A stretch of 64,000 nucleotides of DNA from an uncultured Pelagibacteraceae bacterium. Its GTDB lineage: Bacteria > Pseudomonadota > Alphaproteobacteria > Pelagibacterales > Pelagibacteraceae. Within the stretch, counting starts at the first letter, position 1, and every line of letters begins with the position of its first letter. Shown here piece by piece: positions 15,035 through 32,018 of the stretch. The stretch is from contig CACPPK010000001.1 of assembly GCA_902635845.1 (NCBI GenBank), positions 158,070 to 222,069 on the forward strand. Direction: 5' to 3'. The notes under the pieces are model-generated. The model saw nothing but the letters and a program-made list of their open reading frames with translations. It made no database searches and had not been told where the DNA came from. The translations under genes were made by a program, and so were the position numbers.

Positions 15035-16465
15035 ATGTTAGATAAAAGAAAATTTTACATAAATGGTAAATGGGTTGATCCAGTAGAAAAAAATGACTTT
15101 GAGGTAATTAATCCTTGCAATGAAGATCCTTGTGCAATTATTTCATTAGGTTCAAAAAAAGACACAGATAATGCGGTTAAGGCTGCAAAAACTGCTTTTG
15201 AAACCTGGAAAGAAACTAGCAAAAAAGAAAGGGTGGATTTGCTAGAAAAATTATTAGTAGTTTATAAAAAAAGATTTGGAGAAATGGCAGAAGCTATTTC
15301 GTTAGAAATGGGAGCTCCAATAGATTGGGCTACTGATGTTCAAACTGGATCGGGACAAGCACATTTAGAAGATTTTATTTTAAGATTGAAAGAATTTAAT
15401 TTTGATGAACACTTTGATCAAAAATCAAACAACCATATTTGTTATGAACCAATTGGAGTATGTGGATTAATTACTCCATGGAATTGGCCTATAAACCAAA
15501 TAGCTCTTAAGGTCGTACCCGCATTTGCAACTGGGTGTACGATGATACTTAAACCATCTGAAATAGCTCCTATATCTGGGATGTTGTTTTCTGAAATGAT
15601 TGATGAAGTTGGGTTTCCTCATGGTGTATTTAATCTAGTAAATGGTGATGGTGCAGGTGTTGGAACACAAATATCGAGTCATCCTGATATTGATATGGTT
15701 TCTTTTACTGGATCAACTCGTGCTGGGAGACTTATTTCAAAAAATGCAGCAGAAACAATTAAAAGAGTTTGTTTAGAACTTGGAGGCAAAGGTGGAAACA
15801 TAGTTTTCGCAGATAGTTACAAAAATGCTGTTAGAGATGGTATAAGAAATGTTATGAGTAATTCTGGTCAATCTTGTGATGCACCAACAAGAATGTTAGT
15901 TGAAAAATCTATTTACAAAAGAGCAGTTGATGAAGCGGTTGATGAAGCAAATAAAATTAATGTAGATCAAGCCTCAAAGAAAGGGGATCACATAGGACCA
16001 GTAATATCTAAAACTCAATATGACAAGATCATAAATTTAATTGAAAGTGGAATTTCTGAAGGTGCAACGTTAGCAGCCGGTGGTCCAGAGTTACCTAACG
16101 GATTAAATAAAGGTTATTTTATAAAACCAACAATTTTTACAAATGTTACAAACGACATGAGAATAGCTAAAGAAGAAATCTTTGGTCCTGTTCTTTCTAT
16201 TATTCCGTTTGAAACTGAAGATGAAGCAGTAAACATTGTTAATGATACTTCTTATGGTTTGGGAAATTATTTACAAACAGAAGATAGAGAAAAAGCACAT
16301 AGAGTTGCTAAAAAATTAAGATCTGGTTGTGTTTATATTAATGGCAATGCAGCTGATGCCGGAACTCCTTTTGGAGGTTACAGACAATCAGGAAATGGTA
16401 GAGAGGGCGGTGTTTGGGGTCTTGATGAGTATCTAGAAGTTAAAACTGTTACCGGATGGAAATAA
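15035..16465 (+). CDS. NAD-dependent aldehyde dehydrogenase
   Basis: ITPWNWPINQ, SFTGSTRAG, LELGGKGGN, NSGQSCDAPTRM. Clear paralog of 560-1993. Confidence 0.9.
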   Translation: MLDKRKFYINGKWVDPVEKNDFEVINPCNEDPCAIISLGSKKDTDNAVKAAKTAFETWKETSKKERVDLLEKLLVVYKKRFGEMAEAISLEMGAPIDWATDVQTGSGQAHLEDFILRLKEFNFDEHFDQKSNNHICYEPIGVCGLITPWNWPINQIALKVVPAFATGCTMILKPSEIAPISGMLFSEMIDEVGFPHGVFNLVNGDGAGVGTQISSHPDIDMVSFTGSTRAGRLISKNAAETIKRVCLELGGKGGNIVFADSYKNAVRDGIRNVMSNSGQSCDAPTRMLVEKSIYKRAVDEAVDEANKINVDQASKKGDHIGPVISKTQYDKIINLIESGISEGATLAAGGPELPNGLNKGYFIKPTIFTNVTNDMRIAKEEIFGPVLSIIPFETEDEAVNIVNDTSYGLGNYLQTEDREKAHRVAKKLRSGCVYINGNAADAGTPFGGYRQSGNGREGGVWGLDEYLEVKTVTGWK

Positions 16466-16471
16466 AAATTT

Positions 16472-17110
16472 ATGCATTTAATCCATCGTGGGATTGTAAA
16501 CAAAAAATATAAAGAGAACCTTTTAAATTCATTTAAACAATCATTTAAAAAAGGATTTGGAATAGAAACCGATATACACGCAACTAAAGATAATAAATTT
16601 ATCTGTTATCACGACTTTACTTTAAGAAGAATTTTCAAAAAAAAACAAAGTGTTAAAAACTTAAATTATCAAAAATTAAAAGAAATAACTCTCAAACAAA
16701 ATAAACCAATTCCCCTGCTCCAAGATTTATTAAAGATATCAAAAAATAAATTCTATTTATTTATTGAAATTAAGCCCAAATTCACAACAAAATTGCTTAA
16801 AAAACTAATTAATGAAACATCTAAATATTCAAAATGTGTATTTATTTCGTTTAAACATCAAAATATTTTTAATCTTTTGAAACTAAATAAGAAAATAAAA
16901 GTGGGTTTATCTTTTTCACCACCAACAACTGTGAAATCAATAGTAAAAAAATCAATAATTAAAAATATAGATTGCTTAATTCTTGATAAATCATACATCA
17001 AAAACAAAAAAATTCAGAAACTAAAGATTAAAAAATATTTTTATACAATTAAAAATAATTCTGAATTCAAAAAATATAAAAAAAATAATCTTATATTCGA
17101 AAACTTATAA
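16472..17110 (+). CDS. Glycerophosphodiester phosphodiesterase (GDPD) family
   Basis: HRG...ENLLNSFKQSFKKGFGIETDIHATKDNKFICYHDFTLRRIF matches the GDPD N-terminal pattern. Confidence 0.75.
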   Translation: MHLIHRGIVNKKYKENLLNSFKQSFKKGFGIETDIHATKDNKFICYHDFTLRRIFKKKQSVKNLNYQKLKEITLKQNKPIPLLQDLLKISKNKFYLFIEIKPKFTTKLLKKLINETSKYSKCVFISFKHQNIFNLLKLNKKIKVGLSFSPPTTVKSIVKKSIIKNIDCLILDKSYIKNKKIQKLKIKKYFYTIKNNSEFKKYKKNNLIFENL

Positions 17111-18235
17111 TTTTTGCTTCAGATAATTCAATCTTCCAATTATTTCGTCCCTATCCATATAATAACCTTGAAGGTGCCTGTGTCCTGAGTTTGGATCAAA
17201 TTCTGTTCTTCCATGAAGAAGTCTTCTGTTATTAAATGAAAAAATATCACCTGGCTCTAATCTGAAATTAATTTGAAATTTAGGGTCATGTAATAAATTT
17301 CCAAATCGATGATGGGCTTTATAAACTGAGTCCATTATATCTGGATGACAATCAAGAGCATCTAGTGTTGCTATACTATAACGAATATCATTGTAATCTC
17401 CGTCTTTAGTAAGTGATATTGCTGTACCATAAACACTTCTGACTGCTTCTTGAGTATAATCTTTATCTCTAAATTTAAGTGGAGTATTTACCAATATATC
17501 AAAAGTATCCTTTTCGTTATTTTTTAAATAATCTGCCACAGCAAATGCATCTACGGCTGATGAGTCGCCACCCTTTGCTGAATTTATTAAACAGTGTAAA
17601 AATTGATAACCAGGTGGATTTTCAAACCAAGGCAAATCCATATGATTTCTTAAGGCGTGCGCTGTATATGCAGAATTATTTGGTTTTGGAATATTAATTA
17701 CTTCAAAAGGTGTTTTAAAAAAAGTTTCTCGAGTATGACTTATTCGATTTAAAACTTTTAATGCAGAATTTTTTTCTACTGGAGCATTTTTAACAATAGC
17801 TATTCCGGTATAATGTAAAAGCTCTAACCATTTAATCAAACCATCATCAGAGTTTATAATTTCATCATGATCTATCTGTATTGATTTTAAGTTTTTTTCT
17901 AATGAACAGTCCCAAAGTTTATATGGAGAAACGTACTTTTGTTTATTTTTTAAAGTATAACAATTTTCTCTTAACCATTTTGGATCATAATAACTTATAT
18001 GGTCTCCTTCGCTCCATTCGATTTCTAATTTTCCATCTGAACTTATAGAATACTTTGAAGGATTAATGTTTTCTGAGACCTCTAGAATGTTAAACATTCT
18101 ATGTCTCGAATCTTTATCATGAGCAGTTGGACAATTATCTCTTAGCCAAAGGTAATTAAACTTACTCTCTTCACCATCATTCCAAATAACTTTTAAATAC
18201 GTTGAATTTTTTTCTAGTTTAGAAATTGAGCTCAC
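17105..18235 (-). CDS. Gamma-butyrobetaine hydroxylase-like Fe(II)/2OG dioxygenase (BBOX/TmpA superfamily)
   Basis: N-terminal small domain FNYLWLRDNCPTAH; TauD-like core with HMD (HxD) and RRLLHGRTEF distal His. Confidence 0.8.
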   Translation of the reverse strand: MSSISKLEKNSTYLKVIWNDGEESKFNYLWLRDNCPTAHDKDSRHRMFNILEVSENINPSKYSISSDGKLEIEWSEGDHISYYDPKWLRENCYTLKNKQKYVSPYKLWDCSLEKNLKSIQIDHDEIINSDDGLIKWLELLHYTGIAIVKNAPVEKNSALKVLNRISHTRETFFKTPFEVINIPKPNNSAYTAHALRNHMDLPWFENPPGYQFLHCLINSAKGGDSSAVDAFAVADYLKNNEKDTFDILVNTPLKFRDKDYTQEAVRSVYGTAISLTKDGDYNDIRYSIATLDALDCHPDIMDSVYKAHHRFGNLLHDPKFQINFRLEPGDIFSFNNRRLLHGRTEFDPNSGHRHLQGYYMDRDEIIGRLNYLKQKL

Positions 18236-18366: not shown

Positions 18367-19383
18367 ATGAAGTTTTTAAAGAGATTAACAATCTCAATTT
18401 TCCTTCTTTCATCTTTAATTGTAAGTAATGCAAACGCTGGTGATTGTAAGGCAAGATTGGGAGATTTTGATTGGAGCAGTGCTAACATCCACACAGCTAT
18501 CACTACTTTCATACTTGAAAAAGGATACGGTTGTGAAGTGTCTGTAACTAAGGGAAGTACTACTCCGATTATGGCCGCTCATTACGATGGTCAATTAGAT
18601 GTCATTACTGAAGTTTGGTACGATAATATAATTGGTAATTATAAACCTCATGAAGAAGCAGGTACAATTATCCATATGGGAACAAACACACCAGACTCTC
18701 AGCAAGCATTCTACGTAGATAAAGCTACTGCTGATAAATACAATTTAAAATCTGTTGAAGATATGAAAGATCCAAAAATAGCTGCGCTATTTAAAGATCC
18801 AGAAGATCCTTCAAAAGGCAGAATGACTAGCTGTATATCTGGTTGGACTTGCTACACTGTTAACTTGGTTAAGCAAAAAGAGTATGGTTTAGATAAATAC
18901 TATACAAACTTTGATCCAGGTTCAGGAGGTGCATTAGATGCTGCTATAGCAGGTGCATTTGCTAAGAAAAAACCAATCTTCACTTACTACTGGGCACCAA
19001 CTGGATTAATGGGTAAAGTTGATCTAGTAAGATTAACTGAACCAAAATTTGATCAAACTTGCTGGGATAATATGTCTGCAGTTGTTGAAGATATCAAAGC
19101 TAACGGACCAGATGCTTATAAACCTTCATGCGCATGTGAATATAGAGATATGGCTTTAACTAAGTCTGTACTTGCAACATGGGCAAAAGCTCATCCAAAA
19201 GAAAATGAGTTTATTGGAAAATATACAGTTCCAACAGCTACTGTTAACAAAATGTTAGCATTCTATGAAGATGAGTCAGGTGGTGATATGGAAGCTACTG
19301 CAATAGAGTTCTTGAAAACAGAAACTATGTGGAAAGACTGGGTGCCAGCTGATGTTGCTAAAAAAGTTTCAGCAGCATTATAA
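18367..19383 (+). CDS. proX: Glycine betaine/proline-type ABC transporter substrate-binding protein
   Basis: Signal peptide; OpuAC/ProX-like architecture; SD AAGGAGA; followed by ProW and ProV homologs. Confidence 0.85.
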   Translation: MKFLKRLTISIFLLSSLIVSNANAGDCKARLGDFDWSSANIHTAITTFILEKGYGCEVSVTKGSTTPIMAAHYDGQLDVITEVWYDNIIGNYKPHEEAGTIIHMGTNTPDSQQAFYVDKATADKYNLKSVEDMKDPKIAALFKDPEDPSKGRMTSCISGWTCYTVNLVKQKEYGLDKYYTNFDPGSGGALDAAIAGAFAKKKPIFTYYWAPTGLMGKVDLVRLTEPKFDQTCWDNMSAVVEDIKANGPDAYKPSCACEYRDMALTKSVLATWAKAHPKENEFIGKYTVPTATVNKMLAFYEDESGGDMEATAIEFLKTETMWKDWVPADVAKKVSAAL

Positions 19384-19406
19384 TCACTAAATTAAATTTA
19401 TAAGAT

Positions 19407-19430
19407 AGAGCCCTTCGGGGCTCTTTCTTT
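19407..19430 (+). terminator. UUCG-loop terminator/attenuator between proX and proW
   Basis: AGAGCCC-TTCG-GGGCTCT stem followed by TTTCTTT, in the proX-proW gap. Confidence 0.8.
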
Positions 19431-19445
19431 AAGTAAAAAACAAAT

Positions 19446-20477
19446 ATGGAAGCATTAAAGAAAAATAAAAAAATATTTTTTAATATTGGTTTGTTGGTTG
19501 TTTTTGTATGGTTATTAATAACTAGCTATTCTCAATCAAAAAGAAAACCTGACAATATTGGGGAATTATTAAATGATTTTTCTTGGCTAGGAGGTAAGTG
19601 GCCAAAATGGTTAGATTTACCATTAATGAATTGGATTAATTCTGGTTTCAAAACACTTAACGAAAAATATGGGTACATATTTGAAGCTATTAACAATGTT
19701 CTTTTATATATGTTAATGCTTGTAAAAAATTTTTTAATTCAAGCTCCATGGCCACTAGTTATACTTGGTGTGGTGGTTCTAACTTACTTTGCAAGTGGAA
19801 GAAAAATTGGAACAACAGTATTTGTAGGATTTTGCACTTTTTTTATAGGTTTTCTTCACCCAATATTCTGGCAAAAAGCAATTGAAACAACTGCAATAAT
19901 GTTAATTGGAATATTTCTTTGTGTTGTTGCAGGTATTCCATTGGGAATAGCTATGGCACGAAGCGCAAGAACAAGAAATGTTATTTTGCCAGTTTTAGAT
20001 TTGATGCAAACTATTCCAAGTTTCTGTTATTTAATTCCGGGTATTATGTTGTTTGGTTTAGGAGCAGTTCCAGCTATTATAGCTACATTTATTTATGCAG
20101 TTCCTCCTTTAGTAAGACTAACAGATTTAGGAATTAGGCTTGTAGATACTGAGGTTATTGAAGCTGCGGATGCATTTGGTGCAAGTAAAAAACAAAAACT
20201 ATGGGGAGTACAAATGCCATTAGCTTTGCCAAATATTATGCAAGGAATTAATCAGTGTACAATGATGGCATTGGCGATGGTTGTTATTGCATCGATGATA
20301 GGCACTAGAGGTTTAGGAGATGAAGTTTTACTTGGACTTCAACAATTAAATGTAGGAAGAGCTGCTGAAGCAGGGATCGCTATTGTGCTTCTGGCAATAG
20401 TTCTTGATAGGATAACTCAATCTTATGGAGAAACACTACAAGAGAGAACAGCACCAAATACAAAGAAAGGTAAATAA
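19446..20477 (+). CDS. proW: Glycine betaine/proline-type ABC transporter permease
   Basis: EAADAFGASKKQKLWGVQMPLALPNIMQGINQ EAA loop and Pro/Gly-betaine permease core. Confidence 0.9.
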   Translation: MEALKKNKKIFFNIGLLVVFVWLLITSYSQSKRKPDNIGELLNDFSWLGGKWPKWLDLPLMNWINSGFKTLNEKYGYIFEAINNVLLYMLMLVKNFLIQAPWPLVILGVVVLTYFASGRKIGTTVFVGFCTFFIGFLHPIFWQKAIETTAIMLIGIFLCVVAGIPLGIAMARSARTRNVILPVLDLMQTIPSFCYLIPGIMLFGLGAVPAIIATFIYAVPPLVRLTDLGIRLVDTEVIEAADAFGASKKQKLWGVQMPLALPNIMQGINQCTMMALAMVVIASMIGTRGLGDEVLLGLQQLNVGRAAEAGIAIVLLAIVLDRITQSYGETLQERTAPNTKKGK

Positions 20478-21502
20478 TGTCTAAAATTGAGATTAATAAT
20501 GTTTATAAAATCTTCGGTAACAATCCTCAGTCTGTAATGCCAATGGTAAAAGATGGAGCAAACAAAGAAGAAGTTTTAGAACAAACTGGTCATACTGTTG
20601 GTCTTGATAATGTTTCATTAAAAATAGAAGAAGGAGAAACTTTTGTTTGTATGGGTTTGTCAGGATCTGGAAAATCAACTCTAATTAGGCATTTAAATAG
20701 ATTAATCGATCCCACTGACGGAGAAATTTTAGTAGAAGGAACAAATGTAATGTCATTAAATAAAGAACAACTAATTGACTTTAGAAGACATAAAATGAGT
20801 ATGGTGTTTCAGAGATTTGGTTTGTTCCCACATAAAACTGTTTTACAGAACGTAGGCTATGGATTGGAAATGCAAGGCAAAGCAGAAGAGGAAAGACATA
20901 GTGTAGCGATGGAAAAAATTGATGCTGTTGGTTTAACAGGATTTGAAAATCAATTTCCAAATCAATTATCTGGGGGAATGCAACAAAGGGTTGGTTTAGC
21001 AAGAGCACTTGCTACTGATAGTGATATCATGTTAATGGATGAAGCTTTTAGTGCTTTAGATCCTTTAATTAGAAGTGATATGCAAAAACAACTGCTAGAT
21101 CTTCAATCAGAATTAAAAAAAACAATCGTATTTATTACTCATGATTTAGATGAGTCTTTAAGACTTGGTGATCACATTGGAATATTAAATGCTGGTAAAC
21201 TTGTTCAAGTTGGAACACCAGTAGACATTATAATGAATCCAGCTGATGATTATGTTAAGGCATTTGTTAAAGATGTTAATAGAGCAAAAGTAATTAAAGC
21301 TAAAATAGTTATGAAAAAAACTGAAGAAGCAAATGATATTGATAAATCTAATTTAATAAAAGTTAATGAAGATCAATTTATAGAAGAATTTTTACCTCAA
21401 ATTGTTTGTTCAAATTCAAACTGTGAGGTTGTTGATAAAAGTGGAAATGTAAAAGGTTATATATCAAATAAAGAACTACAGACATCACTAACAAAATCTT
21501 AA
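20477..21502 (+). CDS. proV: Glycine betaine/proline-type ABC transporter ATP-binding protein
   Basis: GLSGSGKST Walker A, LSGGMQQRVGLARAL, DEAFSALDPLIR, C-terminal CBS-like tail. Confidence 0.9.
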   Translation: MSKIEINNVYKIFGNNPQSVMPMVKDGANKEEVLEQTGHTVGLDNVSLKIEEGETFVCMGLSGSGKSTLIRHLNRLIDPTDGEILVEGTNVMSLNKEQLIDFRRHKMSMVFQRFGLFPHKTVLQNVGYGLEMQGKAEEERHSVAMEKIDAVGLTGFENQFPNQLSGGMQQRVGLARALATDSDIMLMDEAFSALDPLIRSDMQKQLLDLQSELKKTIVFITHDLDESLRLGDHIGILNAGKLVQVGTPVDIIMNPADDYVKAFVKDVNRAKVIKAKIVMKKTEEANDIDKSNLIKVNEDQFIEEFLPQIVCSNSNCEVVDKSGNVKGYISNKELQTSLTKS

Positions 21503-21505
21503 TTA

Positions 21506-22294
21506 ATGGTTAACCAATCATTAAAGAATAAAAAAATAATAATTTCTGCAGGAGCATCTGGGATAGGTTTAGCTACGGCTAAAGTATGTCTTGCGCGTGG
21601 AGCATATGTTTATCTTTGTGATATTGACACTAAATCTTTAAACAAACTTAATAAACATCCTTTAAAAAATAAAAGATTGTTCTCATATGCATGTGATGCC
21701 TCAGATGAAAATCAAGTTTCAGATTTATTTAAGAAAATAAATAATAAAACAAAAAAAATCGATGCTTTAATAAATAATGTTGGAATCGCTGGACCAACCG
21801 GATCACTAGAAAAACTTAAATCTGAAGATTGGGAAAGAACCATTCAAGTAGATGTTAATAGTCATTTTTATTTTACTAAGAAAGCCATACCTTTAATTAA
21901 AAAATCTAGAAATGGATCAATAATAAATATTTCATCAACTGCTGGTATATTAGGTTTTCCTTTAAGATCCCCTTATGCGGCAAGCAAGTGGGCAATCATT
22001 GGAGTTACCAAAACATTGGCGATGGAGCTAGGTAAATTCAATATAAGAGTTAATGCGGTTTGTCCTGGTTCAATAAAAGGCGAAAGAATGAAAAGAGTAA
22101 TAAGAGATAAAGCAAAGTTTACAAAAGTTTCTTCAAAAAAAGTTGAAAAAGAATTTATTTCAATGAGTTCTATGAAAAAATGGATCCTAGAGGAAGATAT
22201 AGGAAAAATGTGTGCTTTTTTAATATCTGATGACTCAAGTAAAGTTTCAGGACAGGTAATTTCTGTAGATGGACATACAGAAAGAAACGACTAA
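21506..22294 (+). CDS. Short-chain dehydrogenase/reductase
   Basis: GASGIGLA cofactor motif, NNVGIAGP, YAASKWAIIG (YxxxK). Confidence 0.9.
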   Translation: MVNQSLKNKKIIISAGASGIGLATAKVCLARGAYVYLCDIDTKSLNKLNKHPLKNKRLFSYACDASDENQVSDLFKKINNKTKKIDALINNVGIAGPTGSLEKLKSEDWERTIQVDVNSHFYFTKKAIPLIKKSRNGSIINISSTAGILGFPLRSPYAASKWAIIGVTKTLAMELGKFNIRVNAVCPGSIKGERMKRVIRDKAKFTKVSSKKVEKEFISMSSMKKWILEEDIGKMCAFLISDDSSKVSGQVISVDGHTERND

Positions 22295-22689
22295 TTCGAA
22301 AACCTTTTATACTTTGGAAGTTTATCAGTAATTTTATAAAAATCTGATTTAGTACCAACAAATATATTTCTCATCGTCTTAAGACCTGTTTTTCCATTAA
22401 ACATACCCGCAGCTATTGATACATTATCTGTGTTTTTAAATTTAAAAAAAATACTAGCCCCACATTTATTGCAAAATCCTCTTTTTGCACTACTGGATGA
22501 TTTAAACCATTTGAGAGTTTTTTTATTTATGAATTTAATATCTTTATCTTTAACATTAGAATAAGCCCCATAAATACCATGGGTTTTTCTACATTGAATA
22601 CAATGACAATTTGAGACATTTCTATGTTCACCACTAGTTTTAAACTTTACTCCTTTACATAAACAACTGGCTGTTAAAGTTTTTTTCAT
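22291..22689 (-). CDS. GFA-family (glutathione-dependent formaldehyde-activating-like) zinc protein
   Basis: Cys pattern SCLCKGVKF, CHCIQCRKTHG, FCNKCGASIFF. Confidence 0.8.
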   Translation of the reverse strand: MKKTLTASCLCKGVKFKTSGEHRNVSNCHCIQCRKTHGIYGAYSNVKDKDIKFINKKTLKWFKSSSSAKRGFCNKCGASIFFKFKNTDNVSIAAGMFNGKTGLKTMRNIFVGTKSDFYKITDKLPKYKRFSN

Positions 22690-23633
22690 TATCTTCTAAT
22701 TTTATTTTCGTATTTTTTTCTTAATTTTTGAAGATCAACTAAATACTGATCTCTTATATTTGATATCATTGTAACCGATTTACCCTTGGCTTGTTTTGCT
22801 GTTCCTGAAATAAGTCTTGATGATAATTTATTTGATAATTTTGGGGCTTTTAATTTTGTCCAAGGTAACTTTAAAGCAGGTCCAAATTGCTCTAACATAT
22901 GTTTCATTCCTGCTTTTCCACCTGCAAGGTGAAAAGTTAAAAATGTACCCATTAACGACCATCTTAATCCTGGACCATCTTCAATTGCCCTGTCTAATTC
23001 CTCTGTAGTTGCATACCCCTCATTAATTATATGTAACCCTTCTCTCCATAATGCTTCTTGCAATCTATCTGATAAATAACCAGGTAATTCATTTTTTACC
23101 ATAATTGGATTCATAGAAATCGATTCATAAAATTTTTTAGCTAAATTTAAATTTTTTCTTGAAGTTCTCTTACCTGGAACAATTTCTACAGCAGGCAATA
23201 AATAAACAGGATTAAACGGGTGTCCAATTATACCTCGCTCTGGATTTTTGCATTTTGAATAAATTCTTGTTGGGAGCAAACCTGAAGAACTTGAGGAAAT
23301 TATTGAATTTGGTTTTGCATACATTCCAATTTTATTCATCAGTTTAGTTTTTAAAGAATAGTTTTCAGTTGCACATTCCTGAATAAAGTCTGCTTCTTTT
23401 AACGCCTGTTCTATTGAAGTAAAAAAATGAAAATTTTTAAGATTTATTTTTTTTTTGTTAAAAAGTTTTTTTACAAATGGCCATGTTCTTTTTATTTCGG
23501 ATATTAAATTTTTTTTTAACTTGATATCCTTATCAAATGCATAAACAATTTTGTTATGAGCTAAACAACGTATGATCCACCCTGCTCCAATTACACCTGT
23601 TCCAATTACAGCAACTTTTTTAATATTTTGCAT
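22689..23633 (-). CDS. L-carnitine dehydrogenase-like (3-hydroxyacyl-CoA dehydrogenase family)
   Basis: VAVIGTGVIGAGWI, GHPFNPVYLLPAVEIV, DGPGLRWSLMGTFLTFHLAGGKAGMKH. Followed by BKACE in the same operon. Confidence 0.85.
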   Translation of the reverse strand: MQNIKKVAVIGTGVIGAGWIIRCLAHNKIVYAFDKDIKLKKNLISEIKRTWPFVKKLFNKKKINLKNFHFFTSIEQALKEADFIQECATENYSLKTKLMNKIGMYAKPNSIISSSSSGLLPTRIYSKCKNPERGIIGHPFNPVYLLPAVEIVPGKRTSRKNLNLAKKFYESISMNPIMVKNELPGYLSDRLQEALWREGLHIINEGYATTEELDRAIEDGPGLRWSLMGTFLTFHLAGGKAGMKHMLEQFGPALKLPWTKLKAPKLSNKLSSRLISGTAKQAKGKSVTMISNIRDQYLVDLQKLRKKYENKIRR

Positions 23634-24520
23634 TACTTGTGTTTAACAAGTTTTAACTTCTCTCTTGTTTCTGCAGGTGTCATTGTTGTTGCACCTAGAT
23701 CTTCAACAATTCTAAGTGCTTTTTCAACTAACTGAGCATTTGTTGCTAGTTTGCCTTTAGATAAATACAAATTATCTTCTAAACCCACTCTTGGATTACC
23801 GCCCATAATTACAGTTTGTGCTACGAATGGCATCTCGTTTTTGGATATTGCAAAACCTGACCACACACCTTCTTTTGGCATAATATCTTTCATTGCTTGC
23901 ATTGCTAATGGAGTAGCTGGCGCTCCCCATGGAATTCCTAAACACATTTGAAACATTGGAGGATCGTCTAACAATCCTTCTTTATATAGTTGCGCTCCAA
24001 ACCACATATTTCCTAAATCAAATGCTTCTATTTCTGGTTTTACTTTAATTTCTTTTAATCGTTTTGCAGCTTTTCTTAAATCGTTTGGGGTATTAACCGT
24101 TATAACTGAACTATCACCAAAATTTAGAGTTCCACAATCTAGTGTACAAATTTCAGGTAAAAATTGTTCAGCATTAGCAATTCTTTCCATAACATTTGCC
24201 ATATCAGTCATTGGTCCAAACTCTAAAGGGTCTTTGCCTTGACCAATGTCTAAATCTCCACCCATTCCAGTTGTTAAATTTAAAATAACATCCGTATCAC
24301 TTGAACGAACTCTATCTACAACCTCTTTATATAATTCTAGCCTTCTGCTTGGTGTTCCGTCCTCTTCTCTAACATGAATATGTGCTATTGCTGCACCTGC
24401 CTTTGCAGCTTCAATCGCCGCTGTTGCAATTTGTTCTGGTGTTTTTGGCAATTCAGGATGTTTGCTTGCGGTATCTCCTGACCCAGTTACAGCACATGAT
24501 ATGAATACCTTGTTGTTCAT
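23633..24520 (-). CDS. BKACE family beta-keto acid cleavage enzyme (dehydrocarnitine cleavage)
   Basis: FISCAVTGSGDT...IATAAIEAAKAGAAIAHIHVRE, NLTTGMGGD, GNPRVGLEDNLYLSKG; neighbours L-carnitine dehydrogenase. Confidence 0.85.
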   Translation of the reverse strand: MNNKVFISCAVTGSGDTASKHPELPKTPEQIATAAIEAAKAGAAIAHIHVREEDGTPSRRLELYKEVVDRVRSSDTDVILNLTTGMGGDLDIGQGKDPLEFGPMTDMANVMERIANAEQFLPEICTLDCGTLNFGDSSVITVNTPNDLRKAAKRLKEIKVKPEIEAFDLGNMWFGAQLYKEGLLDDPPMFQMCLGIPWGAPATPLAMQAMKDIMPKEGVWSGFAISKNEMPFVAQTVIMGGNPRVGLEDNLYLSKGKLATNAQLVEKALRIVEDLGATTMTPAETREKLKLVKHK

Positions 24521-24567: not shown

Positions 24568-25035
24568 ATGTCATTTTACATAACAGATCTAACAATCAAA
24601 AAAGAATGGACCGATTACAATAATCACATGAACATGGCTTACTATGTCCTAGTTTTTGATCAGACTTGGGAGATAATTCTTGAAAAATTTAAGATGGGCG
24701 AAAAATCTGCAAAGGATACTCAAAGAAGTACCATGGTTGTTGAAACTCGAACTACTTATGATGGGGAGGTTAAAGAAGGAGATGGGGTTGAAATTGTTTT
24801 AACCTTTTTTGATCATGATAAAAAGAGACTACATTTCAAAATGGAAATGATTGAAAAATCATCAAAAAAATTATCTGCAACTATCGAAATGTTAGCTCTC
24901 TATATTGATCTTAGTAAAAGAAAAGTTACAGAATTTGAGGAAGAAAAAATTAAAATTATGGACGACTTTATAAATGAAAATAAAAATGAATTTAATTCTA
25001 ATAATTTAACAATTATAGGAAAACTTAAAAAATGA
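24568..25035 (+). CDS. Hotdog-fold thioesterase, probable betainyl-CoA thioesterase
   Basis: WTDYNNHMNMAYYVLVFDQ hotdog signature; divergent from the carnitine dehydrogenase/BKACE genes. Confidence 0.75.
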   Translation: MSFYITDLTIKKEWTDYNNHMNMAYYVLVFDQTWEIILEKFKMGEKSAKDTQRSTMVVETRTTYDGEVKEGDGVEIVLTFFDHDKKRLHFKMEMIEKSSKKLSATIEMLALYIDLSKRKVTEFEEEKIKIMDDFINENKNEFNSNNLTIIGKLKK

Positions 25036-25862
25036 TTGATATAAGATTATTATCTGGAGCATTAGGTGCAGAAATAAATGGAATTGATTTAACTGATGTA
25101 TCAGATGAAAATTTTAAGAAAATAAACGACCTATTGTTAGAACACAAAGTTATTTTTTTTAGAGATCAACCTTTAACCACAGAACAGCATATTGCATTAG
25201 CTGCAAAGTTTGGCCCATTAGAAACACATGCATATGTTAAAGGCCGAAGTGAATTTCCTGAAATTGTAAGAATAATTAAAAAACCTGATGAAAAAACACA
25301 ATGGGGCGAAGGTTGGCATTCAGATGTTAGTTACAATAAAAAGCCAACAAAGGCAGTTGTTTTAAAATCAATTAAAATTCCTCCAGTTGGAGGGGATACT
25401 GTTTTTTCAAATATGGAACTTGCATGGGAAACATTAGATGATGAGATGAAAAATAAGATTAAAGATAAAAAAGCTGTTCATTCATCAAGAGGTGGAGGAT
25501 TTTTCCTAGATAAATATAAAGCAATGGAGAGCAATGGAAATATGGATGAATACTCAAATACTCATCCAATTTTAAGAACTCATCCCGAAACAGGTAATAA
25601 AATTCTTTTTGTTAACTGGACCTATACAAAAGAAATAGTTGGCATGGATAAAAAAGAAAGTGATGAGATATTAAATTATTTATTCGAACATCAGGCAAGA
25701 CTAGATCTTACTTGTAGATTTAAATGGACAGAAAATGCAATTGCAATTTGGGATAATAGAAGTGTTCAACATTATGCAATCGCTGATTTTTATCCAAATA
25801 AAGGACTTGGTTTTGAAAGAATAATGGATCGGATTGCGATTGAAGGGGATCATCCACAATAA
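25032..25862 (+). CDS. TauD/TfdA-family Fe(II)/2OG dioxygenase
   Basis: VIFFRDQPLTTEQHIALAAKFGPLE, WHSDVSY (HxD), WDNRSVQHYAIADF (distal His). Confidence 0.85.
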   Translation: MIDIRLLSGALGAEINGIDLTDVSDENFKKINDLLLEHKVIFFRDQPLTTEQHIALAAKFGPLETHAYVKGRSEFPEIVRIIKKPDEKTQWGEGWHSDVSYNKKPTKAVVLKSIKIPPVGGDTVFSNMELAWETLDDEMKNKIKDKKAVHSSRGGGFFLDKYKAMESNGNMDEYSNTHPILRTHPETGNKILFVNWTYTKEIVGMDKKESDEILNYLFEHQARLDLTCRFKWTENAIAIWDNRSVQHYAIADFYPNKGLGFERIMDRIAIEGDHPQ

Positions 25863-25865
25863 TAA

Positions 25866-26402
25866 ATGAAAATAATTTATAAAATCATTTCAAATTTTAT
25901 AAATAATAAATCTTTATACATTGGTGAAAAAGTAACTATGTCAGAACATATGATTCAATCTGCCATGCTTGCTGAAAAAGCTAAGTGTAACGATGATTTA
26001 ATTTGTGCATGTTTGCTACATGACTATGGTCATTTTCTTTTAGAAGATCCTGATGAATTAGTTAAAAATAAATTAGACGGAGAACATGAAAATATTGGAT
26101 ATCAGTATCTTAAAAAATTTTTTGGGCAAAAAATAGTTGAACCAATTAAATACCATGTTTTAGCTAAACGTTATTTGGCTAGAGATAAAAAATATTTTAA
26201 TTTTTTATCAGATGCGTCAAAAATAAGCCTCAAGTTACAAGGAGGAGTTTTAAATACTAGAGAGAGTAAAGAGTTTGAGAATAAATCTTACTTTAAGCCA
26301 TCAATTCTACTTCGAAAATTTGATGAAGCTGCTAAAAGAACTGACATTAAAATGAAATCTATTCATGACTATGAAAAGTTGTTAAGTTCCAAACTTATAT
26401 GA
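25866..26402 (+). CDS. PhnZ/TmpB-like HD-domain protein (putative mixed-valent diiron oxygenase)
   Basis: YIGE at residues 18-21, H28, H52-D53 (LLHDYGH), H74, HVLAKRYL with H97, LSDASKISLKLQGG and D153 in LRKFDEAAK follow the remembered PhnZ ligand pattern. Confidence 0.75.
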   Translation: MKIIYKIISNFINNKSLYIGEKVTMSEHMIQSAMLAEKAKCNDDLICACLLHDYGHFLLEDPDELVKNKLDGEHENIGYQYLKKFFGQKIVEPIKYHVLAKRYLARDKKYFNFLSDASKISLKLQGGVLNTRESKEFENKSYFKPSILLRKFDEAAKRTDIKMKSIHDYEKLLSSKLI

Positions 26403-27979
26403 ATTTCGATTATTTAATAATTGGTGCTGGAAGTGCAGGCTGTGTACTTGCAAATCGATTAACAGAAAACAATCAAAACAATGTAGCAATATTTGAAGCT
26501 GGGAAGCCCAGTGATATTTGGAAAGTTAACATGCCACTTGCGATTTTATATACGATGCATGATCCAAAATATAACTACAAATATTATTCAGAACCAGAAC
26601 CTCATTTACATAATAGAAGATTATTTTGTCCAAGAGGAAAAATGATTGGCGGATGTTCTGCTCATAATGGAATGGTATTTGTAAGAGGAAACCCAAATGA
26701 TTATCAAAGATGGGCATCCTTTGGATTGGACGATTGGTCTTATGAAAAAGTCCTTCCCTATTTCAAAAAAATTGAAACCTGGTCTGAGGGAGAAAATGAA
26801 TATCGAGGTGGTAATGGAATATTACCAGTAAACCAATCTAAAAATAAAAATCCTTTATTCAAAGCGTTTGTCGATTCAGCTGGCGAGGCTGGTTACAAAA
26901 TAAATAATGACATGAATGGTAAAGAACAAGAAGGTTTTGGAATGTACGATGTTACTATTCATAATGGTGAAAGAGCAAGTGTATCTAAATATTATTTAAA
27001 TCCTGCCAAAAAAAGAAAAAACCTAAAAATATTCACAGAAGCTTTTGTTGAGAGAATTATATTTGATGGAAAAAAAGCAATTGGAATTGAAGTAAAAATC
27101 AAAAATAAAATCGAAAAGATTTATGCTAATAAAGAAGTGATTTTAAGTGGAGGTGCAATTAATTCACCACAATTACTAATGCTTTCTGGAATTGGTCCAA
27201 GCCAACACTTAAAAGACAAGGGAATTGATGTTGTTCATAACTTAGAGGGTGTTGGAAAAAACTTACAAGATCATTTAGAAACCTACGTGCAGCAGGAATG
27301 TAAAACCAAAGATACTTTATATTCATACGTTAATAAACTTAATATGATGAGGATTGGTATTCAGTGGTTTTTAAATAGAAGTGGTCCCTGCTCTACTTCT
27401 TTCTTAGAAGCTGGAGGTTTTTGTAAATCATCTCCAGAGAGAGAATATCCTAATATTCAATTTCATTTTTTTCCTGCTTTCGTAATTGATCATGGGTTAG
27501 TTGATCCAGATAGGCATGGTTATCAATTACATGCGAGTCCAAACCATCCAAAAAGTAGAGGTCATATAACTTTAAACAGCTCAGATCCTTATGATTATCC
27601 AAAAATTCAATTTAATTATCTAGAACATGAGGATGATTTAAAGCAAACCATAGAATGTATTCATGTAGCTAGAAAAATTTTGGGGCAAGACTCTCTGAAG
27701 CCTTTTGCAGGAAAAGAAATTGGACCAGGAGAACATGCTCAAACTAATGAAGTATTTGAAGAATACATTAGATCTAAAGCTGAAACTGCTTACCACCCAT
27801 CATGCACTTTAAAAATGGGTGTGGATAGTATGGCTGTTGTAGATCAAAAACTAAAGGTTCATGGTGTTGAAAATCTAAGAGTAGTTGATGCGTCTGTAAT
27901 GCCTGAAATTACAAGTGGAAACCTAAATGCTCCAACATTGATGATTGCTGAAAGAGCGTCTGAATTTATTTTAAACTAA
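26399..27979 (+). CDS. GMC-family FAD oxidoreductase (choline dehydrogenase-like)
   Basis: DYLIIGAGSAGCVLANRLTE, GGCSAHNGMVFVRG, GGAINSPQLLMLSGIGP, C-terminal YHPSCTLKMG. Confidence 0.85.
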   Translation: MNFDYLIIGAGSAGCVLANRLTENNQNNVAIFEAGKPSDIWKVNMPLAILYTMHDPKYNYKYYSEPEPHLHNRRLFCPRGKMIGGCSAHNGMVFVRGNPNDYQRWASFGLDDWSYEKVLPYFKKIETWSEGENEYRGGNGILPVNQSKNKNPLFKAFVDSAGEAGYKINNDMNGKEQEGFGMYDVTIHNGERASVSKYYLNPAKKRKNLKIFTEAFVERIIFDGKKAIGIEVKIKNKIEKIYANKEVILSGGAINSPQLLMLSGIGPSQHLKDKGIDVVHNLEGVGKNLQDHLETYVQQECKTKDTLYSYVNKLNMMRIGIQWFLNRSGPCSTSFLEAGGFCKSSPEREYPNIQFHFFPAFVIDHGLVDPDRHGYQLHASPNHPKSRGHITLNSSDPYDYPKIQFNYLEHEDDLKQTIECIHVARKILGQDSLKPFAGKEIGPGEHAQTNEVFEEYIRSKAETAYHPSCTLKMGVDSMAVVDQKLKVHGVENLRVVDASVMPEITSGNLNAPTLMIAERASEFILN

Positions 27980-30968: not shown

Positions 30969-32018
30969 TTAAATAAATTTCCTAGCAGCATTAACCATTG
31001 TGGTTAATTTTTTTATAGCTAGTTCTCTTGGTAAAAAACCTAGTCCACAATCTGGTGCTGCTATTAATCTTTCTTTATCAATATATCTTAAAATAGCTTT
31101 TATTCTTTGTTCTATTTCTTGTTCGGTTTCTTCTTTGCTTGAAGCAATTTTTATTAAACCTAGAATTAATTTCTTATTTTTAAAATCTTCAAATATCTCT
31201 TCATCGTTATATCGATGAGCATCCTCAATTGATATTGCATCTAAAATTGAACTGTCTAGTTGTTTAGAAATTTTTTTATAAGAATCCAAAGGTGCTTTTG
31301 GGTAGTTAATTGCATCAAGTTTATCTGGATAACCACAACACATATGCATTATTTTTTCAATTTTGGGATTATTTATTCCCTCAAAACAGATTTCTAAATT
31401 TCTAATTCCATAATTCAAAGCCTCTTCTGGTTTTCTTGCAAATAAAGGTTCGTCAATTTGAATATATTTACAGCCTGCCTCAACTAATCTTTTAACCTCA
31501 ATATTTATTGCTTTTGCTAAGTCAAAACCTAATTCTTCATCTGTTTTATAAAATTTGTTGGCAACTGTGTCTGTAATAGTCAAAGGTCCAGGAATAGTTA
31601 TTTTTAAATCTTTTTTTGTTAGAGATTGATTTTTTTTCCACTCATCGACTAAAAAAGGTTTGTCTGCCTCAACCTTTGATACAATAGTTGGTAAAAAAGA
31701 TGTATAACTTCCTGATCTTGCTGGTTTTTCAGTTAAAAATGAAAAATCTATACCTAGTAAATGACGACAATGATAATGAACATAGTTTTCTCGTCTAACT
31801 TCCCCATCTGTAATGATATCTAATCCACACAACTCTTGATCTTTAATTACTTGTTTTGTTGCTTTTAAAAATAAATCTTCAGCATTTTTTCCAAAGTCAT
31901 TTATTTCTTCATTATAGTATTTTGTTGGGTATTTTTTATCAGTTTTGTTAGTGTTAAACCAATCAGTTAAATTTAAAAAACTTGGTTTGGGGTAAGCGCC
32001 AATAACAGTTGTCAGCAT
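30969..32018 (-). CDS. Short cobalamin-independent methionine synthase (MetE C-terminal)-like methyltransferase
   Basis: QIDEPLFARKPEEALNYG, HMCCGY (Zn ligands), PDCGLGFLPRELA; lacks the MetE N-terminal half. Confidence 0.8.
   Translation of the reverse strand: MLTTVIGAYPKPSFLNLTDWFNTNKTDKKYPTKYYNEEINDFGKNAEDLFLKATKQVIKDQELCGLDIITDGEVRRENYVHYHCRHLLGIDFSFLTEKPARSGSYTSFLPTIVSKVEADKPFLVDEWKKNQSLTKKDLKITIPGPLTITDTVANKFYKTDEELGFDLAKAINIEVKRLVEAGCKYIQIDEPLFARKPEEALNYGIRNLEICFEGINNPKIEKIMHMCCGYPDKLDAINYPKAPLDSYKKISKQLDSSILDAISIEDAHRYNDEEIFEDFKNKKLILGLIKIASSKEETEQEIEQRIKAILRYIDKERLIAAPDCGLGFLPRELAIKKLTTMVNAARKFI

Follow-up and report, generated by a model that had tools for sequence, protein, structure and literature searches.

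Several described systems come close to parts of the locus analysed here. TmpA/TmpB of Leisingera caerulea (NF049936/NF049941, PDB 6npa/6npb) and PhnY/PhnZ, which leads from 2-AEP to glycine, pair a hydroxylase with an HD-domain oxygenase; CdhABC converts carnitine to glycine betaine; and single genes recall the taurine dioxygenase TauD (PDB 1gqw) and BetA. The stretch examined, 64,000 nucleotides long and referred to as the window, comes from a member of SAR11, a group of abundant ocean bacteria. Four genes on one strand form an operon in it: a thioesterase of the 4HBT_2 family (TE; 24568-25035, +; 155 aa; 79 bits to the Pfam model), a TauD-type Fe(II)/2OG dioxygenase of the TauD family (25032-25862, +; 276 aa), a predicted HD-domain oxygenase of the PhnZ/TmpB kind (P0003; 25866-26402, +; 178 aa; HD family) and a GMC oxidoreductase of the choline-dehydrogenase subfamily (26399-27979, +; 526 aa). 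The layout given in the first-pass annotation, with ATGA overlaps between TE and TauD and between HD and GMC and a 3-nt gap between TauD and HD, was reproduced from the open reading frames, and the reported distance of 47 bp from the divergent BKACE (start 24520, -) and carnitine-dehydrogenase genes was borne out. Among about 48 SAR11 loci found via HD, in close relatives represented by Pelagibacteraceae single-cell genomes and MAGs, the order TauD-HD-GMC is kept in nearly all, so that the adjacency is not due to chance. In these loci TE usually precedes, BKACE and often carnitine dehydrogenase are divergent, and further left are a BBOX-family gene, a ProXWV transporter and an SDR.

The surrounding genes form a carnitine/choline island. 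BKACE (beta-keto acid cleavage enzyme; 23633-24520, -; Pfam 312.8 bits) is probably responsible for dehydrocarnitine cleavage and was present in 12 of 12 HD-bearing genomes tested, while the L-carnitine dehydrogenase-like 3HCDH next to it (22689-23633, -; 355.5 bits to NF005471, cut-off 414) is absent from some otherwise intact SAR11 islands. A ProX-ProW-ProV type ABC transporter of the betaine/choline class (18367-21502, +) is followed, in nearly all islands seen, by the SDR dehydrogenase (21506-22294, +). A betaine-aldehyde-dehydrogenase-like ALDH (15035-16465, +; TIGR01804 422 bits, below cut-off) and a glycerophosphodiester phosphodiesterase-like gene of possible choline release (16472-17110, +; a weak match of 22.6 bits) are also present. 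Two further genes were noted in passing: a GFA-family gene (22291-22689, -) is present in some islands and missing from others, and a Core-MetE-like gene is located at 30969-32018 (-). SAR11 has been reported to be without MetE (PMC12478193); MetE-like genes also occur beside HD/BBOX in L165 and beside carnitine genes in L152.

Carnitine dehydrogenase, BKACE and thioesterase families occur side by side in the window, as in the CdhABC gene set, but the SAR11 carnitine dehydrogenase is missing from the islands mentioned above and the thioesterase belongs to the operon on the opposite strand. TE aligns to the C-terminal thioesterase part of the fused carnitine 3-dehydrogenase NF005716 (60 bits) and is probably a betainyl-CoA thioesterase. 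It is mostly conserved with TauD, HD and GMC, also in places where its neighbour is not carnitine dehydrogenase, and the idea that it is tied only to the carnitine branch is weakened by islands having TE without adjacent carnitine genes. GMC exceeds the NCBIfam cut-off for the choline-dehydrogenase subfamily (751 vs. 605) but falls below that of the betA equivalog (687 vs. 732), and it is retained throughout, in operons with either oxygenase and in those that have the pair. The earlier suggestion that the neighbourhood points to glycine betaine is supported both by these gene families and by the presence of BKACE in the HD-bearing genomes.

HD most likely belongs with the PhnZ/TmpB oxygenases and is not a hydrolase, because diiron ligands, YxxE loop and PhnZ phosphonate contacts are kept and invariant. 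The residues in question are Y18xxE21, H28, H52-D53, H56, H74, H97, K101, S118, R150 and D153, which include the diiron ligand pattern H...HD...H...H...D and do not vary among SAR11 HD proteins. The same is true of the positions corresponding to H62, K108, S126 and R158 of PhnZ, which presumably contact the phosphonate. The substrate loop Y18xxE21, likewise invariant in SAR11, is of the YxxE type that is absent from MIOX and separates PhnZ/TmpB from it (PMC8177086). The best solved-structure relatives are TmpB and PhnZ; motif residues, nearest structures and tree thus all agree with a grouping among these oxygenases and not among the hydrolases, as first proposed. Nevertheless, HD stays under every curated NCBIfam cut-off (TIGR03276 Phn-HD, 167.8 bits against 214.6; TmpB NF049941, 152.5 against 300; PhnZ1, 137.2 against 300). 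A tree built from 101 HD proteins puts the SAR11 sequences in their own clade (support 100/99) outside the TmpB clade, and this clade branches weakly (64/83) within the half containing the BBOX-linked HDs and PhnZ, a placement that is not firm. Lid and pocket positions 25, 26, 31, 35 and 63 resemble BBOX-linked TmpB-type HDs, unlike most other Phn-HDs, while at the positions best splitting BBOX-linked from other HDs the SAR11 proteins are intermediate overall. No close relatives of the window-type HD were seen outside SAR11 among 399 genomes of the phylum. HD is therefore a TmpB homologue with YxxE loop, similar lid residues and a betaine setting, but one that is found beside TauD and GMC; no adjacent TmpA, and no other partner bearing the full TmpA signature including N287/R288, accompanies it, which sets it apart from TmpAB. 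With PhnY/PhnZ it shares the HD oxygenase signature and the phosphonate contacts, whereas its operon has no PhyH gene, its lid residues are different and a PhnD-type protein is mostly missing. PhyH proteins are found in many of these genomes, yet several with HD have none or weak matches, and there is thus no consistent PhnY partner.

TauD shares with taurine dioxygenase the fold family, the Fe ligands H99/D101/H255 and the residues H70, V102, R266 and R270 (E. coli TauD numbering), the last four of which we take to form the anion and 2OG side. In contrast, Y73/D94/N95, which we take to be the taurine amine contacts, are replaced by V/W/G in all 30 SAR11 sequences as well as in the window, and the score against the curated taurine dioxygenase NF007104 reaches 231 bits where the cut-off is 313. 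The predicted structure (pLDDT 56.5) was not used. On the best reading of these residues TauD would be a separate anion-binding Fe/2OG dioxygenase that differs from taurine dioxygenase in the amine pocket; an anionic organosulfur compound is a plausible substrate, and it could be a quaternary one. A second SAR11 family (f177) has TauD too, in 26 genomes, none of which has the window-type HD. In all five f177 loci fetched (L263-L267) TauD comes after an EamA transporter gene and has a divergent alkyl-sulfatase gene as its neighbour.

Whether TauD and HD belong together can be judged from natural strains. Of 298 Pelagibacterales genomes, most of the SAR11 genomes being incomplete, 81 had a TauD orthologue and 32 the window-type HD; 24 carried both, 57 TauD only (31 Pelagibacteraceae, 26 f177) and eight HD only. 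The association is positive (odds ratio 11, Fisher p ~3e-9, uncorrected for phylogeny), and 24 of the 32 HD genomes carry a full-length TauD. Among the eight without it, TauD is cut by a contig end in one and split in two frames in another, leaving six. The split copy (L288, G627), next to an intact HD, reflects either decay or sequencing error. Five fetched loci (L251, L252, L254, L255, L256) read TE-HD-GMC, with TE directly followed by HD and no TauD, while eight HD-less loci have TauD and then GMC, seven of them preceded by TE (L257, L258, L261, L262, L268, L269, L270) and one reduced to TauD-GMC (L259). The clearest case is the pair L240, with HD, and L258, without: the flanks are 97.7% identical over 8.3 kb and 98.6% over 7.7 kb, the TauD proteins are 98.9% identical, and between the flanks 550 bp holding HD in L240 compare with 15 bp in L258, whose genome (G446) contains no HD match anywhere. 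In the TauD tree, loci with and without HD are intermingled, with at least five label changes forced. TauD proteins from HD-less loci keep all pocket residues, and HD proteins from TauD-less loci keep all motif residues. Given the clean single-gene loci, the L240/L258 pair, the intermingled tree and pocket residues that are independent of HD, the two enzymes need not act in series. The first-pass annotation had cast them as consecutive steps and had named co-conservation across relatives, beforehand, as the test that could overturn this; the genes proved statistically associated but largely not co-conserved, and obligate succession is not supported, given the clean loss of either one with the other intact.

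A serial route, in which TauD hydroxylates C1 of a quaternary aminophosphonate and HD cuts the C-P bond, the products being glycine betaine and phosphate and single-gene strains being partial or repurposed, nevertheless has points in its favour. Tight adjacency, the 3-nt spacing and positive co-occurrence are what it would predict, the anion-binding H70 and R270 are kept, the aromatic residues W94, Y72, Y104 and Y206 that take the place of the taurine amine pocket could hold a trimethylammonium group, and none of the genomes examined yielded an enzyme with the full TmpA signature. However, either gene is cleanly lost beside an intact copy of the other, including in strains 98% identical over the region, the whole f177 family has TauD without the window-type HD, and no tight TauD-HD pair was present in 90 other alphaproteobacterial HD loci, as opposed to about 20 tight BBOX-HD pairs (gene content of high-GC loci having been read by tblastn). 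Strains with just one of the genes argue against a fixed two-step pathway, and we regard the serial route as unlikely. HD might instead be served by a BBOX/TmpA-family Fe/2OG dioxygenase of the same island (17105-18235, -), with TauD unrelated. This protein was not mentioned in the first-pass annotation, which had expected a TauD-type partner to be a new pairing; that argument passes over the BBOX protein, 7.6 kb away, which shares Pfam family PF02668 with TauD. TmpA is itself of the BBOX/TmpA family and elsewhere is what usually lies next to HD. The island protein retains the Fe ligands and N191, and an ortholog occurs in 10 of 10 HD-bearing genomes examined for it, including six that lack TauD. 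The Asn-Arg pair (N287, R288) that contacts phosphonate in TmpA (PMC9296572) speaks against this role: it is present in almost all HD-adjacent BBOX proteins of other Alphaproteobacteria (an NNRS-like signature) but reads I/V/T-A in the SAR11 proteins examined (S-I-A for N-N-R in the window), and the BBOX Asn pair is missing too. The BBOX tree is long-branched and was used for residues only. The protein is also retained in the HD-less islands L259 and L270, which would fit a carnitine-side role, and its serving as the TmpA of the island appears doubtful to us. A TmpA-related dioxygenase with Arg at the R288 position and Asp replacing N187 was observed in L176 (G000:C1:55238).

The substrate of HD could also be a non-phosphonate alpha-hydroxy acid. 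Of 31 HD-bearing genomes searched, 27 had no PhnD-type binding protein above cut-off, and the whole window assembly (76% complete) likewise yielded no phosphonate-binding protein above it, which extends the earlier remark that no phosphonate transporter is visible. A second SAR11 HD class (L225-L236), which shares about 40% identity with the HD of the window, does lie beside a PhnD-type ABC transporter (PhnCDE-type genes), with a PhnX-like HAD gene adjoining in some loci. Since most HD-bearing genomes are without PhnD, a phosphonate would have to enter through the ProXWV-type transporter. Against a non-phosphonate substrate, all listed phosphonate-contact positions of PhnZ are invariant in SAR11 HD, and we consider it very improbable. 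It is also rather unlikely, in our view, that HD represents a new specificity class that makes glycine betaine out of a quaternary-amine phosphonate taken up by the betaine-type transporter, with TauD as its new kind of hydroxylase where both are kept.

With moderate confidence, we favour a scenario in which the SAR11 island is a funnel to glycine betaine for several quaternary amines, TE, TauD, HD and GMC being separable entry or exit enzymes. The reasons include the clean separation of TauD and HD in both directions, the persistence of GMC with either oxygenase, the presence of BKACE in every HD-bearing genome tested and the tmpAB-like genes beside carnitine genes in two other Alphaproteobacteria (L139, L152), where a TmpA/TmpB-like pair directly adjoins BBOX, BKACE and carnitine-dehydrogenase genes. 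The BBOX in these clusters is a second one. In the proposed scheme TE would free betaine from betainyl-CoA supplied by the carnitine-dehydrogenase/BKACE branch, and GMC would oxidise choline to betaine aldehyde, with ALDH completing the conversion. HD, best read as a divergent TmpB-like oxygenase whose dedicated hydroxylase is possibly absent, would act as a mixed-valent diiron enzyme on an alpha-hydroxylated quaternary compound, in all likelihood 1-hydroxy-2-trimethylaminoethylphosphonate, and split it oxidatively into glycine betaine and phosphate. TauD would independently hydroxylate a different anionic substrate (e.g., a sulfonate or sulfate ester like trimethyltaurine or choline-O-sulfate) to yield betaine aldehyde. 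The protein classes, the conserved catalytic residues, the gene neighbourhood and the separability of TauD and HD are read directly from the sequences; we infer the substrates and products of all these steps, as well as the source of the hydroxylated substrate of HD. Several points count against such a funnel: the positive association and adjacency of TauD and HD, which a serial pathway predicts as well, the lack of PhnD in most HD-bearing genomes, the incompleteness of most SAR11 genomes used, and the failure to find a hydroxylase with the full TmpA signature among the aligned PF02668 matches of the eight HD-bearing genomes without full-length TauD, G405 and the window genome.

In one survey Pelagibacterales contributed 45% of marine phnZ sequences, with phnZ read as 2-AEP catabolism (PMC9381506). 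Counting the window-type HD as 2-AEP degradation may mislead, given its setting in a carnitine/choline island and the rarity of PhnD-type proteins in the same genomes. Strains that naturally have a single gene allow a direct test of this question. Should the substrate prove to be a quaternary phosphonate, SAR11 would obtain both phosphate and an osmolyte through one enzyme.
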